NCBI RefSeq assembly: GCF_013426975.1
Contig: NZ_JACCPY010000021.1
Location: 1-64,000 of the forward strand
DNA: 64,000 nucleotides
Reading direction: 5' to 3'
DNA from: Sphaerotilus sulfidivorans
GTDB taxonomy: Bacteria; Pseudomonadota; Gammaproteobacteria; Burkholderiales; Burkholderiaceae_C
Positions within the stretch are counted from its first letter, which is position 1. Every line of letters starts with the position of its first letter. The notes under the pieces are model-generated. The model searched no databases, was not told the origin of the DNA, and saw nothing but the letters and a program-made list of their open reading frames with translations. Below, piece by piece: positions 45,934 to 55,102 of the stretch. A program made the position numbers and the translations under genes.

Positions 45934-46884
45934 TCACCGCACTGGCACCCCCGGCAGCACGCACAGCATCTCGTACAGCAGGTTCGCGCCCAGCAGCGCG
46001 GTGTTGCCGCTCGGGTCGTAGGGTGGAGAGACCTCGACCAGATCGGCGCCCACCAGGTTCAGCCCGCGGCAGCCGCGGATGATCTCCAGCGCCTGCGGCA
46101 CGCTCAATCCGCCGATCTCGGGCGTGCCGGTGCCGCCGGCAAAAGAAGGGTCGATGCCGTCGATGTCGAAGCTGAGATAGCAGGGCGCGTCGCCGATGAC
46201 CGCGCGCACCTTGTCCATGATGGGTGCCAGCGACTGCCACCAGACCTCGTGCGCCGGGATGATCGTGAAGCCCTGGCGGCGCGGCCAGTCGAAGTCGTCG
46301 GCGGCGTAGCCGGAGCCGCGCAGGCCGATCTGCCAGACCTTGTTCGTCTGCAGCAGGCCTTCCTCCACCGCGCGGCGGAAGGGTGTGCCGTGCGCGATGC
46401 GCTCGCCGAACATCTCGTCGTTGACGTCGGCATGCGCATCGACATGAATGAGGGCGACCGGCCCGTGGCGCTCGGCCACCGCGCGCAGGATGGGCAGCGC
46501 GATGGTGTGGTCGCCGCCCAGCGTCAGCGGCACGCAGCCGTGGCCGAGCACCTCGCGGTAGAAGTCGGTGATGATGCCGACCGACTTCTCCAGCGAGTAG
46601 GTGTTGATCGGCACGTCGCCCAGGTCGGCGACCTGCAGCGCGTCGAAGGGTGCCGCGCCGGTGGCCATGTTGTAAGGCCGGATCAGGCTGGATTCGGCGC
46701 GGATCTGGCGCGGGCCGAAGCGCGCACCGGCGCGGTTGGAGGCCCCGATGTCCAGCGGCACGCCGATGAAGGCGGCGTCCAGGCCCGCGGCATGGGTGGC
46801 CACCGGCAGGCGCATCATCGAGGCCAGCCCGCCGAAGCGCGGCATCTCGTTGCCGCCGAGCGGCTGGTTCAGCGGGCGGCTCAT
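45934..46884 (-). CDS. Agmatinase/guanidinobutyrase-family ureohydrolase
   Basis: This 316-residue protein shows the binuclear manganese motifs of ureohydrolases: GGDHTI, HVDAHADV and SFDIDGIDPSFAGGTGTPE. It removes urea from a guanidino compound. Agmatinase and guanidinobutyrase cannot be separated by eye. Adjacency to a gabT gene, whose substrate is the guanidinobutyrate product GABA, favours guanidinobutyrase (inference). Its ATG overlaps the stop of the permease gene (ATGA), so it is the last gene of the transporter operon. Confidence 0.9.
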   Translation of the reverse strand: MSRPLNQPLGGNEMPRFGGLASMMRLPVATHAAGLDAAFIGVPLDIGASNRAGARFGPRQIRAESSLIRPYNMATGAAPFDALQVADLGDVPINTYSLEKSVGIITDFYREVLGHGCVPLTLGGDHTIALPILRAVAERHGPVALIHVDAHADVNDEMFGERIAHGTPFRRAVEEGLLQTNKVWQIGLRGSGYAADDFDWPRRQGFTIIPAHEVWWQSLAPIMDKVRAVIGDAPCYLSFDIDGIDPSFAGGTGTPEIGGLSVPQALEIIRGCRGLNLVGADLVEVSPPYDPSGNTALLGANLLYEMLCVLPGVPVR

Positions 46885-47714
46885 GCGCGGCGCCCCCGGA
46901 TCCACTCGAGCGCCAGCATCAGGCCGGTGGTGAAGATCGTCAGCAGCGTGGCCACCGCGGCGATGGTCGGGCTGATGTTCTCGCGGATGCCGGTGAACAT
47001 CTGGCGCGGCAGCGTGACCTGCTCCGGGCCGGCGACGAAGAGCGTGACCACCACCTCGTCGAAGGAGGTCGCGAAGGCGAACAGCGCGCCCGAGATCACG
47101 CCCGGCGCGATCACCGGCAGCGTGATGCGGAAGAAGGTCTCGACCGGGCCGGCGCCCAGACTCAGCGAGGCGCGCACCAGGTTGTGGTTGAAGCCCTGCA
47201 GCGTCGCCAGCACGGTGGTCAGCACGAAGGGCGCACCCAGCGCGGCATGCACCACGATCAGGCCGAGGTAGCTGTCGGCGAAGCCCAGCCTGGCGAAGAA
47301 CAGGTAGCAGGCCACGCCCACCACCACGATCGGCACCACCATTGGCGCGATCAGGATGCTCATCAGGAGGCCCTTGCCGGGAAAGTCGGTGCGCGACAGG
47401 CCCACGGCCGCCAGCGTGCCCAGCACGGTGGCGATCAGCGTGGCCGCCGGCGCGACGATGAAGCTGTTGCGCGCGGCGCGGCCCCATTCCGGCGCGTTGA
47501 ACAGGTTCTCGTACCACTGCAGCGACCAGCCCGGCATCGGATACGCCAGGAAGGAGCTTGACGAGAAGGACAGCGGCACGATCACCAGGATCGGCAGCAG
47601 CATGAACACCAGCATCCCGATGCAGAACAGGCGCATCAGCCACCAGCCGAGCTTGTCGGCCAGCGTGGCGTAGGCCGGGAACTGCGGGTTCATCGCGGAC
47701 AGGATCGCGTTCAT
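46881..47714 (-). CDS. Polyamine-type ABC transporter permease (PotI/PotC-like)
   Basis: This 277-residue permease has six membrane helices and the EAA loop LVRASLSLGAGPVETFFRITLPVIAPGV. FSSSSFLAYPMPGWSLQWYENL near the N-terminus is typical of spermidine/putrescine type II permeases. The ATG at 47714 has AAGGAAG upstream. It pairs with the preceding, larger permease. Confidence 0.92.
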   Translation of the reverse strand: MNAILSAMNPQFPAYATLADKLGWWLMRLFCIGMLVFMLLPILVIVPLSFSSSSFLAYPMPGWSLQWYENLFNAPEWGRAARNSFIVAPAATLIATVLGTLAAVGLSRTDFPGKGLLMSILIAPMVVPIVVVGVACYLFFARLGFADSYLGLIVVHAALGAPFVLTTVLATLQGFNHNLVRASLSLGAGPVETFFRITLPVIAPGVISGALFAFATSFDEVVVTLFVAGPEQVTLPRQMFTGIRENISPTIAAVATLLTIFTTGLMLALEWIRGRRA

Positions 47715-47749: not shown

Positions 47750-49012
47750 TCAGCCCAGGCTCAGCTCGGACTTCACCACGCGGCGGTAGACGCCGTAGAG
47801 GATCAGCGTGGCGGCGAGCAGCACCGCGCCCAGCGCGCAGGCCATGCCCCAGTTGACCTCGACGTTGGTGTACTGGGCGATGTAGTACGACAGCATCTGG
47901 TCGTCGGCGCCGCCCAGCAGCGCCGGCGTCACGTAGTAGCCGATGCTCAGGATGAAGACCAGCAGCGCGCCGGCCCCGACGCCCGACCAGGTCTGCGGCA
48001 CATAGACGCGGAAGAAGGCCGCCAGCGGCGAGCTGCCCAGGCTGATGGCCGCGCGCAGATAGGTCGGCGGCACCGACTTCATCACGCTGTACAGCGGCAG
48101 GATCATGAAGGGCAGCAGGATGTGCACCATCGCGATGACCACGCCGGTGCGGTTGAACAGCAGCGCGAGGGGCTCCTCGATCAGGCCCATGCCGACCAGC
48201 GCCGAGTTGACCAGGCCCTCGCGCTGCAGCAGCACGATCCAGGCCGCGACCCGCACCAGGATCGAGGTCCAGAACGGCACCAGCACCAGGATCATCAGCA
48301 GGTTGGCGCGGCGCGCGTCGAGCGTCGACAGCCAGTAGGCCAGCGGGTAGGCCAGCAGCAGGCACAGCACCGTGACCACCGCCGAGATGTTGAAGGTGCG
48401 CAGCAGGATCTTGCCGAAGACCGCCTGCTCGGCCGGCATGGCCTCGACATGGCCTTCGGCATCGCGGCGCAGGTCGACCGCGGCGAGCAGGTAGTCGGGC
48501 GTCCAGCGGCTGGCGTTCTTGGCGATCGCCTGCCAGTAGAGCGGCTCGCCCCAGCGCGCGTCGATCTCGAGCAGGCGATCGCGCGTCTGCTCGGGGCTCA
48601 GGCCCTCGCCGAGCGGCAGCGCCCGGTAGGTGCCCATCACCAGCGAGCGCGCGCCGGGCACCTCGGAGTTGAGCCGGCGCGCCAGCGTGCCGGCCTGCGC
48701 GGTCTCCGGCAGTGCGCCCAGGTCGCGCACCAGGGCCGCATAGGCAGCCGCGGGCGGCGTGCCGTGACGGTCCCAGCCCGACAGCGCCTCGCCGGTATGC
48801 ACCAGCACGTCGGCCACCTCCGGGTTCTCGACCGCACGCTTGAGCAGCGCGCCGATCGGCACCAGGAAGGTCAGCAGCAGGAAGACCAGCAGCGGCAGCG
48901 TCAGGCTGGCGGCCGTCAGCTTGCGGCGGCGCTCGGCGCGCTGGAGCGCACGGGCGAGATCCTGGCCGCGCGGGGCGGCGGCTTCCTGTTCGTCGAGGGC
49001 GAGGCTGTGCAT
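47750..49012 (-). CDS. Polyamine-type ABC transporter permease (PotB/PotH-like), long form
   Basis: This protein of 420 residues is longer than classical PotB (about 285). After the first helix (LPLLVFLLLTFLVPIGALL) about 140 residues of extracytoplasmic sequence precede the remaining helices. The EAA loop is LRAAISLGSSPLAAFFRVYVPQT. The extra loop is known in some Burkholderiales putrescine-type permeases. It forms the channel with the next gene and is part of the operon ATPase - binding protein - permeases - ureohydrolase. Confidence 0.9.
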   Translation of the reverse strand: MHSLALDEQEAAAPRGQDLARALQRAERRRKLTAASLTLPLLVFLLLTFLVPIGALLKRAVENPEVADVLVHTGEALSGWDRHGTPPAAAYAALVRDLGALPETAQAGTLARRLNSEVPGARSLVMGTYRALPLGEGLSPEQTRDRLLEIDARWGEPLYWQAIAKNASRWTPDYLLAAVDLRRDAEGHVEAMPAEQAVFGKILLRTFNISAVVTVLCLLLAYPLAYWLSTLDARRANLLMILVLVPFWTSILVRVAAWIVLLQREGLVNSALVGMGLIEEPLALLFNRTGVVIAMVHILLPFMILPLYSVMKSVPPTYLRAAISLGSSPLAAFFRVYVPQTWSGVGAGALLVFILSIGYYVTPALLGGADDQMLSYYIAQYTNVEVNWGMACALGAVLLAATLILYGVYRRVVKSELSLG

Positions 49013-49060: not shown

Positions 49061-50101
49061 TTACTGGGCGGCCCAGGCGGCGAAGCGCTTCTCCAGCGCC
49101 TCGCCCTGGTCGGCCCAGAAGGTGATGTCGAACTTCAGCGCGTCCTTCGAGTTGGCCGGCGAGGTCGGCAGCAGCGCCAGGGTCTTGGCATCCAGGCTGC
49201 CCAGGGCCTTGTTGTTGGTCGGGCCGTAGGAGATCAGCTTGGCGTATTCGGCCTGGGCGGCCGGCTGCGAGGCCGAGGCGATGAACTTCATCGCCAGGTC
49301 CTTGTTCGGCGTGCCCTTCGGGATGACCCAGTAGTCCAGGTCATAGATGCCGCCGGTCCAGCTGATCTGCAGGTTCTTGCCCTCGCGCTGCGCGGCGTCG
49401 ATGCGGCCGTTGTAGGCGGTGGTCATGACCACGTCGCCGGCGACCAGGAACTGCGGCGGCTGCGCGCCGGCTTCCCACCACTGGATCGAGGGCTTCAGCT
49501 CGGTCATCTTCTTGAACGCGCGATCGGCGCCGGCCGGCGTGGCCAGCACCTTGTAGACGTCCTTCGACGGCACGCCGTCGGCCATCAGCGCGAACTCGAG
49601 GTTGTAGCGCGCGCCCTTGCGCATGCCGCGCTTGCCGGCGAACTTCTTGGTGTCCCAGAAGTCGGCCCAGGTCTTGGGGCCGTCCTTCAGCTTGTCGCCG
49701 TTGTAGGCCATGACGGTCGACCAGATGAAGATGCCGACGCCGCATTCCTGCACCGCCGCCGGCTGGAAGTCGGCCTTGTTGCCGACCTTGGCCCAGTCGA
49801 TCTTCTCGAACAGGCCTTCGTCGCAGCCGCGTGCCGCATCCGGGCTCTCGACCTCGACGACGTCCCAGGTCACCTTCTTCGTCTCGACCATGGCCTTGAT
49901 CTTGGCCTGCTCGCCGTTGTATTCGACGCCGACGATCTTGGTGCCGGTGGCCTTCTCGAAGGGCTCGACATAGGCCTTCTTCTGCGCGTTGCCGTTGGCA
50001 CCGCCGAAGTTGACGACGGTCAGCTGGCTCTGCGCGAGCGCCGAGCCGGCCAGCAGCGAGGCCGCGGCGGCCACGACCAGGGAAACGGTAGCGTTCTTCA
50101 T
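49061..50101 (-). CDS. Polyamine-type ABC transporter substrate-binding protein
   Basis: This 346-residue protein has a signal peptide (VSLVVAAAASLLAGSALA). The mature part is a PotD/PotF-like fold: LTVVNFGGANGNAQKKAYVEPFEKATGTKIV, TWDVVEVESPDAARGCDEGLFEKIDW and GDVVMTTAYNGRIDAAQ. The ligand is not certain: a guanidino or amino compound is suggested by the downstream ureohydrolase and gabT. Confidence 0.92.
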   Translation of the reverse strand: MKNATVSLVVAAAASLLAGSALAQSQLTVVNFGGANGNAQKKAYVEPFEKATGTKIVGVEYNGEQAKIKAMVETKKVTWDVVEVESPDAARGCDEGLFEKIDWAKVGNKADFQPAAVQECGVGIFIWSTVMAYNGDKLKDGPKTWADFWDTKKFAGKRGMRKGARYNLEFALMADGVPSKDVYKVLATPAGADRAFKKMTELKPSIQWWEAGAQPPQFLVAGDVVMTTAYNGRIDAAQREGKNLQISWTGGIYDLDYWVIPKGTPNKDLAMKFIASASQPAAQAEYAKLISYGPTNNKALGSLDAKTLALLPTSPANSKDALKFDITFWADQGEALEKRFAAWAAQ

Positions 50102-50169: not shown

Positions 50170-51255
<1,086 letters not shown>

Positions 51256-51367
51256 CGTCTTCGGGTGCTCGGGTGTGGATCGGGGAAAGGCTCGACGCGG
51301 GGCGCGGCGGACAAGGGGTCCGTGCTGCAGGACGCCCGGACTGTAGGAGGGGGCTTGTCGCGACAAC

Positions 51368-51422
51368 ATGCACAGACAGGGCCCGGTTCCGACGCACTGT
51401 GCAGGCGGTACTGCCTGTACAG
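51368..51422. promoter_or_regulatory. Three-half-site operator upstream of potA
   Basis: ATGCACAG (51368-51375), a 20-base gap, ACTGTGCAGG (51396-51405), an 8-base gap, and CCTGTACAG (51414-51422). The last two form an inverted repeat. The same three blocks with identical 20- and 8-base gaps lie before gabT (53431-53485). The likely binder is the GabR-like protein encoded at 53531. Confidence 0.7.
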
Positions 51423-51915
51423 ACTTGCCCTCTGTTCAAGAGCGGTGCGGCATGTCTGGCACTGGTGCGGTGCATGCCCCGAAAAGAGGCGATCACACGG
51501 CGAAACCCCATCGCAATCGTTCACGATGCGGCGGAAACGCACGAAATCCGCACCGATGCGCGCCATCAGGCCCAGGCGAGGGGCAGAAAAATTTTTCCGT
51601 CTCCCACGCCATGTTGCAGAAAGTTGACAGCGTGCCGAGGTGTCGCCACTGCTGTTCCGGTCTGGAACAGGTTCGGGCTCCCACCCCTTTTGATCTTTTT
51701 AAATACTAACAGCTAAGCGGTTTGCAAACCATCAAGAAACAACCCGTGCAATTCACTCAGGCAAGGCTGAATCACTCCAGAGCCTTCCGGCTTCGCCGGG
51801 CGTCTTGACCAAAAAAGCGCTTTTTGCCGGTCTTGTGGCCGGAGGGCCGGAGGGAGAGGTGGACGGCGAGAGGATGGATGGGTGGATGGACCGGGCGGGA
51901 TCGGGCGGGATCGGT

Positions 51916-51945
51916 CGTGGGTGCCCGCCTTCGCGGGCATGACGG
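51916..51945 (+). repeat. REP-like palindrome, copy 3
   Basis: The stem is TGCCCGC/GCGGGCA around CTTC. Compared with copy 2, two base pairs differ and both partners change together (C-G to G-C, T-A to C-G). It forms an inverted pair with copy 4, 29 bases away. Confidence 0.82.
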
Positions 51946-51974
51946 AGCCGAGCCGCATGACGGAGTCGACTCTG

Positions 51975-52004
51975 CCGTCATCCTCGCGAAGGCGAGGACC
52001 CACG
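51975..52004 (-). repeat. REP-like palindrome, copy 4
   Basis: The 30 bases are the exact complement of 45901-45930. It lies 18 bases beyond the 3' end of gabT, inverted relative to copy 3, an arrangement like bacterial interspersed mosaic elements. Confidence 0.85.
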
Positions 52005-52022
52005 CGATCCCCCGCGGTGCGG

Positions 52023-53327
52023 TCAGGCCGTCGCGTCGAAGCAGTCCGACAGCACCGCCAGGCCTTCGTCGAGCACAGCGTCGGAGGCGGTCAGCGGCAC
52101 CAGGATGCGGATGACGTTGGCGTGCACGCCGCACGACAGCAGGATCAGGCCGCGGCGCAGGGCTTCCGCGACGATGCGGCGGGTGCGGTCGGCGTCCGGG
52201 CGGGCCAGGTCGCCGTCGGTGAACAGCTCGATGGCGATCATCGCGCCGGGGCCGCGGATGTCGCCGATCGCGCTGTGGCGCTCGGCGATCTGCTTCAGGC
52301 CGGCCTTCAGGCGCTCGCCCACCGCCTGGCTGCGCGCGAGCAGGCTTTCCTTCTCGAAGGTCTCGATCACCGCCAGCGCCGCGGCGCAGGCCAGCGGGTT
52401 GCCGGAGTAGGTGCCGCCCAGGCCGCCCGGTGCCGGCGCGTCCATCACCTCGGCGCGGCCGATGATCGCCGACAGCGGGAAACCGCCGCCCAGCGACTTG
52501 GCCATCGTGATGATGTCCGGCGCCACGCCCGCCTGCTCGAACCAGCTCTCGCAGGCCAGCCAGCGGCCGGTGCGGCCGGCGCCGGTCTGCACCTCGTCGG
52601 CGATCAGCAGGATGCCGTGGCGGTCGCACAGCTCGCGCAGCGCCTTGACGAAGTCGATCGGGGCTTCATAGAAGCCGCCTTCGCCCTGCACCGGTTCCAG
52701 GATGATCGCGGCCACGCGCGAGGGCTCGACGTCGTACTTGAACAGCGCCTCGATCGAGGCCATTGCGTCGGCGGTGCTCACGCCGTGCAGCGCACACGGG
52801 AACTTGGCGTGATAGACCTCGGCCGGGAAGGGACCGAAGCCGACCTTGTACGGCACGACCTTGCCGGTCAGCGCCATGCCCATCATCGTGCGGCCGTGGA
52901 AGCCGCCGCCGAAGGCGATGACCGCCGAACGCTTCGTGTAGGCCCGCGCGACCTTGACCGCGTTCTCGACCGCCTCGGCGCCGGTGGTCATGAAGAAGCT
53001 CTTCTTCGCGAAGGCGCCCGGCGCCATCGTGTTCAGGCGCTCGGCCAGCTCGACATAGGGCTCGTAGGCCAGCACCTGGAAGCAGGTGTGCGTGACGCGG
53101 TCGAGCTGGGCCTTGACCGCCTCGACCAGCGCCGGGTGGCGGTGGCCGGTGTTCAGCACCGCGATGCCGCCGGCGAAGTCGATCAGGCGACGGCCCTCGA
53201 CATCCCAGACCTCGGCGTTCTCGGCCCGGTCGACGAAGACTTCGTGGGCCTGGCCCAGCCCGGCGGGCAGGGCGGCGCGGCGGCGGGCCATCAGGGCGGC
53301 GTTGGTCAGGTTCGGTTCGCGTTGCAT
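52023..53327 (-). CDS. gabT: 4-aminobutyrate aminotransferase GabT
   Basis: This 434-residue class III aminotransferase has the cofactor-site motifs TTGAEAVENAVKVARAYT, AFGGGFHGRTMMGMALTGK and the PLP lysine in MAKSLGGGFPLSAIIGR. LILLSCGVHANVIRILVPL near the C-terminus is typical of GabT. It converts GABA and 2-oxoglutarate to succinate semialdehyde and glutamate. It is divergent from a GabR-like MocR regulator and preceded by the shared operator. Confidence 0.93.
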   Translation of the reverse strand: MQREPNLTNAALMARRRAALPAGLGQAHEVFVDRAENAEVWDVEGRRLIDFAGGIAVLNTGHRHPALVEAVKAQLDRVTHTCFQVLAYEPYVELAERLNTMAPGAFAKKSFFMTTGAEAVENAVKVARAYTKRSAVIAFGGGFHGRTMMGMALTGKVVPYKVGFGPFPAEVYHAKFPCALHGVSTADAMASIEALFKYDVEPSRVAAIILEPVQGEGGFYEAPIDFVKALRELCDRHGILLIADEVQTGAGRTGRWLACESWFEQAGVAPDIITMAKSLGGGFPLSAIIGRAEVMDAPAPGGLGGTYSGNPLACAAALAVIETFEKESLLARSQAVGERLKAGLKQIAERHSAIGDIRGPGAMIAIELFTDGDLARPDADRTRRIVAEALRRGLILLSCGVHANVIRILVPLTASDAVLDEGLAVLSDCFDATA

Positions 53328-53430
53328 CGGGAGGTCCTGGTCGGGGGGGAGGGCAAGTCGGGGTGGCGAGGGTGAGCCGTGGCAGGCTTCGACTAGGCGT
53401 CGACTCTAGGGGCCTGTTCCGCGACGGACC

Positions 53431-53485
53431 ATGTACAGCCAGCGTGATCGGCTTGCGCACTGTGCAGGTTCCTGCACCGGTACAG
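53431..53485. promoter_or_regulatory. Three-half-site operator upstream of gabT
   Basis: ATGTACAG (53431-53438), a 20-base gap, ACTGTGCAGG (53459-53468), an 8-base gap, CCGGTACAG (53477-53485). Spacing matches the potA site exactly. The near edge lies 104 bases from the gabT ATG, against 113 bases at potA, with the same orientation relative to both genes. A TAGACT box at 53514-53519 could serve the regulator gene. Confidence 0.7.
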
Positions 53486-53530
53486 CCTCGGCGATCATGC
53501 TGCAGCGCGGCGCTAGACTTGTCGCCAGCC

Positions 53531-55102
53531 ATGTTCACCCTTCAGCCCCAGTCCTCCATCCCGCTGGTCACCCAGATCGTCGACGGCCTGCGCCGCCTGA
53601 TCGACGACGGGTCCCTGCGTGCCGGCACCAAGGTGCCCTCGATCCGCCAGTTCGCCCATGCGCACGAGGTCAGCGTCTTCACCGTCGTCGAGGCCTACGA
53701 CCGCCTGGTCGCGCTCGGCTATCTGGTCTCGCGGCCGCATTCCGGCTTCTTCGTGCGCAAGCGCGCGGCGGTCGAGAACCGCGAGTCCGGACCGCCCGGC
53801 GTGCCCGGCGGCGGCTACAGCTTCGACTCGGCCTGGTACCTGCGCAAGATCTTCGAGAACCGCCACCTGTCGATGAAGGCCGGCTGCGGCTGGCTGCCCC
53901 ACGAGTGGCTGTTCGAGGACGGCGTGCGGCGCAGCCTGCGCGCGCTGGCGGCCGACAGCATCGACCTCGGCGGCTATGGCGATCCCAAGGGCTTTCCGCC
54001 GCTGCGCGAGTTCATCCGCGACGCGATGGCCGAGCAGGAGATCGCCATCGTGCCCGAGCAGGTGCTGCTGACGCAGGGCTCCAGCCAGGCGCTCGACCTG
54101 GCCGCGCGCCGGCTGGTGCGCGCCGGCGACGCGGTGCTGGTCGACGATCCCGGCTACGCCAACCTGCTGTTCTCGCTGCGCTTCGCAGGCGCCAAGCTGG
54201 TGGGCGTGCCGCGCACGCCGCACGGCTACGACCTGCCCACGCTCGAGAAGCTCATCATCGAGCACCGTCCCAAGATCTTCTTCACCCAGCCGCGCCTGCA
54301 GAGCCCGACCGGCTCGACCGCGCAGCTCGCGCATCTGCACCGGGTGCTGCAGCTGGCCGAGAAGCATGACTTCCTCGTCGTCGAGAACGACATCTATGTC
54401 GATCTGGATCCGGAGCCGCGCCCGTCGCTGGCCAGCCTGGACCAGCTCTCGCGGGTGCTCTATGTCGGCAGCTATTCCAAGACCATCTCGCCGAACCTGC
54501 GGGTGGGCTATCTGGTGGCGCATCCGGACCTGATCGAGGATCTGGCGCAGCTGAAGATGATCTCGGGACTGACCTCGTCGGAGTTCAGCGAGCGGCTGGT
54601 CTACGGCGCGCTCACCGAGGGGCGCTGGCGCAAGCACCTGAAGGCGCTGCGCGACCGCCTGGCCGAGGCGCACCAGCGGGTCGCGGGCCGGCTGGCGCGC
54701 CTGGGCTTCGAGATCTTCTCGGAGCCGAAGGCCGGCATGTTCCTGTGGGCACGCCATCCGCAGCTGCCCGACGCCGGCATGCTGTCCAACCAGGCCGCCG
54801 GCAGCGACATCATGCTCGGCCCCGGCCACCTGTTCACCGCCGCGATGCAGTCAACCGCCTGGATCCGCTTCAATGTCGCCTTCTGCGGCGAGGAGCGCCT
54901 GTTCGACTTCCTGGCCGAGCGCGTCCGCGCCGGCGGGCGCGACTCCGGTGACTCCGGTGACTCCGGTGACTCCGGTGACTCCGGTGACTCCGGTGACTCC
55001 GGTGACTCCGGTGACTCCGGTGACTCCGGTGACTCCGGTGACTCCGGTGACTCCGGTGACTCCGGTGACTCCGGCGACCGCCCCGAGGGCGAACTTCTAT
55101 AA
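53531..55102 (+). CDS. GabR-like MocR regulator with a DSG-repeat tail
   Basis: This protein of 523 residues has a GntR winged helix ([49 protein letters not shown]) and an aminotransferase-like domain with the PLP lysine in [16 protein letters not shown]. Family members end near residue 470. Here the 9-bp minisatellite at 54941-55075 adds 15 Asp-Ser-Gly units before RPEGELL. It is divergent from gabT, consistent with GABA-responsive control of gabT and the transporter operon. The stop codon TAA lies inside the TATAAT box of alaS. Confidence 0.9.
54941..55075 (+). repeat. 9-bp minisatellite, 15 units
   Basis: GACTCCGGT is repeated 14 times without error, followed by GACTCCGGC. The period is a multiple of three, so copy-number change keeps frame and only lengthens or shortens the Asp-Ser-Gly tail. 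Perfect identity indicates recent expansion by slippage. Confidence 0.98.

Follow-up and report, generated by a model that had tools for sequence, protein, structure and literature searches.

Predicted three-box operators of a GabR2-like MocR regulon at gabT and an importer operon in Sphaerotilus sulfidivorans

In Bacillus subtilis, GabR is described as a regulator that activates gabTD with PLP and GABA and represses its own gene gabR (PMC6522883, PMC9452892). The gabTD promoter region given for it spans 41 bp and consists of an inverted repeat flanked by two direct repeats (PMC9452892). For Comamonadaceae, Suvorova and Rodionov (2016) predicted regulons of a regulator named GabR2 that comprise gabT, gabD, gbtABCD and speB, and a GabR2 motif of three boxes with alternating direction (PMC5320631). 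Because this type of regulon is among those predicted there in 2016 (PMC5320631), the regulon treated below is not new. The main text of that paper contains no occurrence of glutar-, guanidinobut- or aminovaler- terms or of RNA polymerase. Within the open-access literature that uses the name GabR2, judged mainly by title, it is the only paper on such a regulator; GabR2 of Corynebacterium variabile, considered as the same regulator, was rejected because it is described as a protein of another class, COG2508 (PMC3219685). Open-access literature on MocR, gabT, Burkholderia and GABA transporters yielded no title on this regulator alone, no open-access paper naming both guanidinobutyrase and MocR was found, and the literature yielded no bench test of the regulon type predicted in 2016. 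What we describe here, in terms of sites, geometry, co-occurrence with the regulator and target genes, is a genuine pair of operators from a GabR2-like regulon. It is largely anticipated, and new in its details rather than as a type; a third operator, the promoter phasing and a likely functional renaming are what is added.

The window we analysed is a stretch of 64,000 nt of Sphaerotilus sulfidivorans (contig NZ_JACCPY010000021.1, positions 1 to 64,000, forward strand). An earlier note on this DNA had reported two 55-base sites with equal gaps, and its fixed-gap pattern indeed matches the window at exactly two places, 51368-51422 and 53431-53485; 100 dinucleotide shuffles of the window gave no match. 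The genome search that the note had proposed was run with the two-box core of the pattern and returned, from the whole genome of 4.39 Mb, the same two sites and no others, with no match of the reversed control. The two operators had been called identical; this is true of the gaps and, apart from the y and k positions, of the boxes, whereas the spacer sequences between the boxes are not alike. In gene sense, both sites read CTGTACmGG-8-CCTGCACAG-21-CTGTrCATG (→ ← →), box3 being longer than first described (CTGTrCATGk). Because the box cores are near-palindromic, the opposite strand scores too, and the direction of the boxes rests on their flanking bases.

The operator upstream of the potA operon (51366-51422, minus strand) comprises box1 CTGTACAGG at 51422-51414, box2 CCTGCACAG at 51405-51397 and box3 CTGTGCATGT at 51375-51366, separated by gaps of 8 and 21 bp. 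The operator between gabT and mocR (53429-53485, minus strand) has the same gaps, with box1 CTGTACCGG at 53485-53477, box2 CCTGCACAG at 53468-53460 and box3 CTGTACATGG at 53438-53429. The first is parted from the potA ATG (51255) by 112 intervening bases and the second from the gabT ATG (53327) by 103; the earlier values of 113 and 104 differ from these solely by counting convention. Each operator is followed by a -10-like hexamer on the minus strand, TACAGT for potA (51340-51345, starting at 51345) and TAGAGT for gabT (53403-53408, starting at 53408). These hexamers are not part of the search pattern, yet both start at an offset of 77 from the start of box1. If TAnAGT is the -10 element, box3 would occupy about -42 to -33, with box2 further upstream at about -71 to -63 and box1 at about -89 to -81. 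A scan of 51200-53600 for consensus sigma-70 promoters found none, a weak result, since only 0.1 would be expected by chance, and a terminator scan gave nothing informative. Over 51430-52000, the gap of about 770 bp between gabT and potA holds no convincing gene; it includes a GC-rich, repeat-like stretch at about 51940-52000 (TGACGGAGCCGAGC... / ...GTCATCCTCGCGAAGGCGAGGACCCACG).

Downstream of the two operators lie genes of which several probably carry misleading names. The gabT gene (52023-53327, minus strand) encodes a 4-aminobutyrate--2-oxoglutarate transaminase (TIGR00700, 570 bits, cutoff 506.65). The importer operon, likewise on the minus strand, begins with 'potA' (50170-51255), the ATPase of a polyamine-type, gbt-like ABC importer (TIGR01187, 372.6 bits, cutoff 355.6), and continues with 'potD' (49061-50101), a substrate-binding protein, and two permease genes, 'potB' (47750-49012; PotB and PotH models at about 157 bits, under their cutoffs) and 'potC' (46881-47714), which is named from its operon position and matches no NCBIfam model. 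Among PDB entries the 'potD' product matches best 9d57 (207.6 bits) and 6dgv (202.3 bits), a chain named fluorescent GABA sensor precursor, ahead of the spermidine/putrescine-binding protein 8jv1 (173.1 bits) and E. coli PotD 1pot (56.5 bits). The name potA, which implies polyamines, may thus be misleading, since the binding protein is nearest to a GABA sensor, with a polyamine-binding protein not far behind. Judged from these similarities, it is plausible that the 'pot' importer takes up GABA, although its ATPase still passes the polyamine model TIGR01187. The start of 'speB' (45934-46884, minus strand), a ureohydrolase gene, overlaps the 3´ end of the last permease gene. Its product scores 498.7 bits against guanidinobutyrase 3nio, 320.2 against 3-guanidinopropionase and at most 196.1 against agmatinases (196.1 for 4dz4). 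It is therefore likely to be a gbuA-like guanidinobutyrase, although it still passes the agmatinase model TIGR01230 (196.5 bits, cutoff 174.3).

The ureohydrolase would split guanidinobutyrate into GABA and urea if it is a guanidinobutyrase, and GabT with GabD converts GABA to succinate. With the ureohydrolase read as guanidinobutyrase and the importer as one for GABA, the order of the pathway makes sense. The regulon of uptake, urea removal and transamination put forward in the earlier note fits this gene content, and gabD is now added to it.

The mocR gene (53531-55102, plus strand), whose ATG lies 45 bases from box1 in the window, encodes the predicted binder of the sites, a GabR2-like protein. 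In this protein, an N-terminal GntR domain (Pfam, 51.8 bits) is joined to an aminotransferase-like domain of class I (Aminotran_1_2, 127.6 bits); both scores exceed their cutoffs, which places the protein in the MocR/GabR subfamily. Among regulators with a solved structure, B. subtilis GabR comes closest, with 97 bits for a match that covers part of the protein. K317 in the motif SYSK aligns with SFSK of 2-aminoadipate transaminase 2egy; we take it to be the PLP-anchoring lysine, which is kept. None of the NCBIfam MocR models reaches its cutoff for this protein, and the GabR model NF052285 gives 119.4 bits against a cutoff of 600, so that by this model the protein does not class as an orthologue of B. 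subtilis GabR. At its 3´ end (54941-55078), mocR contains 15.3 in-frame copies of the 9-bp unit GACTCCGGT, which encode a Gly-Asp-Ser tail. Relatives L091-L093, with 98% identity, have one or two repeat units and a protein of 484 aa, and the repeat looks like a recent expansion.

To which regulator do the sites belong? With up to 2 mismatches, the pattern was found in 18 of 200 family genomes, at 20 places, and its reversed control in none of the 200. A MocR orthologue of at least 55% identity is present in 38 of these genomes, the next matches being at most 46% identical; the 55% line was drawn after the break between 56% and 46% had been seen. All pattern genomes fall among those with the orthologue (18 of 38, against 0 of 162 without it; Fisher 1.8e-15). 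The exact-spacing pattern covers just these 18 of the 38 orthologue genomes, and the remaining ones need flexible spacing. Of the 20 places, the gabT-mocR interval accounts for 16 and the region upstream of potA for three; the last is upstream of gabD, in G106. Paralogous MocR genes (39-46% identity) were accompanied by an operator in 0 of 9 cases, with a best score of 4.6. The comparison thus supports, on the side of sequence, that the neighbouring MocR would be the binder of both sites and that these are members of one regulon; the earlier proposal of the MocR protein next to gabT is backed by the confinement of the pattern to orthologue genomes and its lack at the paralogues.

The geometry was followed through relatives by a flexible scan with a matrix from 19 aligned family sites; as the matrix was trained on these sites, the scores of near relatives are not independent. 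Scores of 23.3 or more were obtained for 35 of the 37 relatives in a family panel, with the reversed control at no more than 3.4. Both exceptions (L069 and L070) belong to one genus and do have the boxes upstream of mocR, with TAGAGT and the promoter spacing kept and with box2 and box3 11 bp apart, a distance shorter by one helical turn than 21-22 bp. Among the 80 named loci, which are the best 80 of 305 relatives and two of which carry a training site, the operator precedes mocR in every one (scores 21.3-57.0; reversed control at most 11.1), as it does in all 78 whose site differs from every training site. Opposite-strand scores reach up to 31.1 in a few loci. The gap between box1 and box2 is 8 bp in 80/80, and that between box2 and box3 is 22 bp in 55, 21 bp in 24 and 20 bp in one. 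The spacing to the -10 is the same in 72 of the 80, and the hexamer reads TAnAGT in 58; off-standard spacings are penalised in the scan, so part of this uniformity is built in. In the aligned sites, the A, A and T of the -10 are present in 19/19, although they lie outside the pattern. A search of the genus with up to 3 mismatches left 4 of 13 genomes (G200, G201, G203 and G205) without an operator match.

Other operators of the presumed regulon lie away from mocR. Even at 3 mismatches, the strict pattern finds nothing in the S. sulfidivorans genome besides the two known sites. A third copy was located via gabD as a predicted target, and then via a relaxed pattern in which the box2-box3 gap is longer by one base, on another contig upstream of gabD (C54:58061-58117). 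Its box1, box2 and the hexamer TAAAGT at offset 77 are kept, and its box3 is degenerate. Of the 119 further genomes drawn from across the order, 2 of them from the same family, none matched the relaxed pattern. We located gabD in 9 of the 10 genomes tried. An operator stands in front of it in five (G000, G058, G106, G204 and G209); in G106, this gene for succinate-semialdehyde dehydrogenase is 21 kb from mocR. In three others (G170, G202 and G207) gabD has no operator of its own and comes immediately after the potA operon's ureohydrolase gene, as read from the upstream sequence. The gabD of G206, a partial match, yielded no operator site.

As for the importer, 54 named loci have both gabT and potA; in 29 of these, potA comes after gabT at a distance of no more than 200 bp, which leaves room for only one operator, able to serve both. 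Where the two genes are further apart, a second operator lies upstream of potA in 12 of 23 loci (scores 18.9-56.1); in the other 11, the potA upstream regions score at most 3.9, with the control at most 6.7. A second operator as invariable companion of the gabT-potA split is therefore rejected. It is present in all seven split loci with no gap ORF longer than 171 aa, the window type included, and in 5 of 16 with longer co-directional gap ORFs. The potA sites of L101 and L115 have a weak box2 and were found without the box2-strength filter. In G202 and G207, the operator stands at potA and no gabT lies within the 3-kb locus.

The likeness to the described systems is close in some respects. The content predicted for GabR2 (PMC5320631) recurs here, with gabT and the importer-ureohydrolase operon in the window and gabD in the same genome, and so does the alternation of three boxes (→ ← →), whose direction rests on the flanks. 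This likeness concerns gene content and motif type, not the published logo or orthologous group. The speB called agmatinase in that paper is guanidinobutyrase-like here, and the promoter phasing, the extra operators and the gcdH and CoA-transferase neighbours described in the present work are not part of its account of GabR2 as cited here. Proteobacterial GabR, as described by Suvorova and Rodionov (2016, PMC5320631), is alike in controlling gabT and gabD in betaproteobacteria. B. subtilis GabR, as far as it is described in the papers cited above, shares the GntR-aminotransferase fusion, the position beside gabT and the order of boxes, and differs in the absence of an importer operon and a ureohydrolase from its regulon. 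The suggestion that the layout could fit the dimer geometry of GabR thus stands as regards box order, which is that of the B. subtilis gabTD promoter, but not as regards length, which is 55-57 bp as against 41 bp.

We consider it very probable that the sites are operators of the GabR2-like MocR and that they form one regulon with gabD; MocR would most likely act as a GABA-responsive activator. The regulon would consist of the importer, the probable guanidinobutyrase, GabT and GabD, and would lead 4-guanidinobutyrate and GABA to succinate. Binding, effector, activation and autorepression are what we infer, in the following way. Each operator would offer three alternating boxes, with box1 and box2 as an inverted pair 8 bp apart and box3 21-22 bp further on, in the place of the -35 element (about -42 to -33) and before the conserved TAnAGT. 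The PLP-loaded regulator would sit on the operator. An aldimine would form between PLP and GABA, or an omega-amino acid close to GABA, the shape of the protein would change, and the altered regulator would recruit RNA polymerase to gabT, gabD and the importer operon. Since mocR starts 4-23 nt from box1 in most loci (51 of the 80 named ones), its promoter must presumably overlap the operator, and binding should repress mocR. In the 80 named loci, a search for a conserved promoter of mocR itself brought out no fixed -10 offset.

The same operator and regulator could also be read in the opposite sense, with MocR mainly repressing gabT and potA until a ligand releases it, as described for EnuR. 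EnuR is a repressor of the MocR/GabR type with predicted operators that overlap the core promoter, according to the description in PMC8739950, and here box3 adjoins the promoter, so that a bound protein could block polymerase. No box, however, lies between the -10 and the start, all three being upstream of the -10, the -35 position is taken by box3 and not by a consensus -35, and B. subtilis GabR, whose boxes stand in the same order, is described as activating gabTD while repressing itself (PMC6522883, PMC9452892). We regard predominant repression as unlikely, though worth keeping in mind.

Far less probable are two readings that would take one or both sites away from MocR. Most sites lie beside mocR, and linkage alone could yield part of the co-occurrence, so that another transcription factor might bind them and the link to mocR might reflect shared ancestry of the neighbourhood; against this speak sites at gabD, on another contig or kilobases off, sites at potA parted from gabT, and the lack of the pattern in all 162 genomes without a MocR orthologue. 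We give this reading very little credence. Hardly more convincing is the notion that the second site at potA is a functionless chance or decayed copy. The 29 of 54 loci in which potA closely follows gabT, with room for one operator, and the 11 of 23 split loci without a second site would agree with it, but the site is carried by 7/7 loci lacking a gap ORF above 171 aa, with the boxes kept and the -10 at the standard offset, and G202 and G207 retain it at potA away from gabT. Activation by the GabR2-like MocR through both sites is the reading we prefer.

Some relatives may point to a further substrate of this regulon. In Sphaerotilus mobilis (L101:4994-7488), the stretch between gabT and potA has genes for a glutaryl-CoA dehydrogenase, which scores 717 bits against solved ones, and for a family III CoA-transferase, which gives 325 bits to succinate--hydroxymethylglutarate CoA-transferase and matches best an unnamed CaiB/BaiF protein (390 bits). 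Another family III CoA-transferase lies between gabT and potA at L136:6373-7560. The window's own gabT-potA gap contains no genes for glutaryl-CoA dehydrogenase or CoA-transferase. Together with GabT and GabD, these two enzymes would serve degradation of 5-aminovalerate through glutarate, so the regulator may respond to omega-amino acids of C5 and not only of C4. Tentatively, one could imagine a portable module of operator and -10, with three boxes replacing the -35, that was set before gabT, gabD and the importer whenever they became separated; the regulon would then serve both C4 (guanidinobutyrate, GABA) and C5 compounds (5-aminovalerate, glutarate), with an effector site that accepts both. 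Should this speculative picture be true, the alternating-box geometry of MocR activators could be put to a direct test with naturally occurring operators, in which the distance from box2 to box3 varies by 1 bp or by one turn of the helix.

Two likely misnamings, agmatinase and polyamine importer, thus seem to hide a guanidinobutyrate-GABA pathway. The regulon type predicted in silico in 2016 becomes a precise, testable promoter module, accompanied by a large natural series of operators in which the one-turn variant is included.
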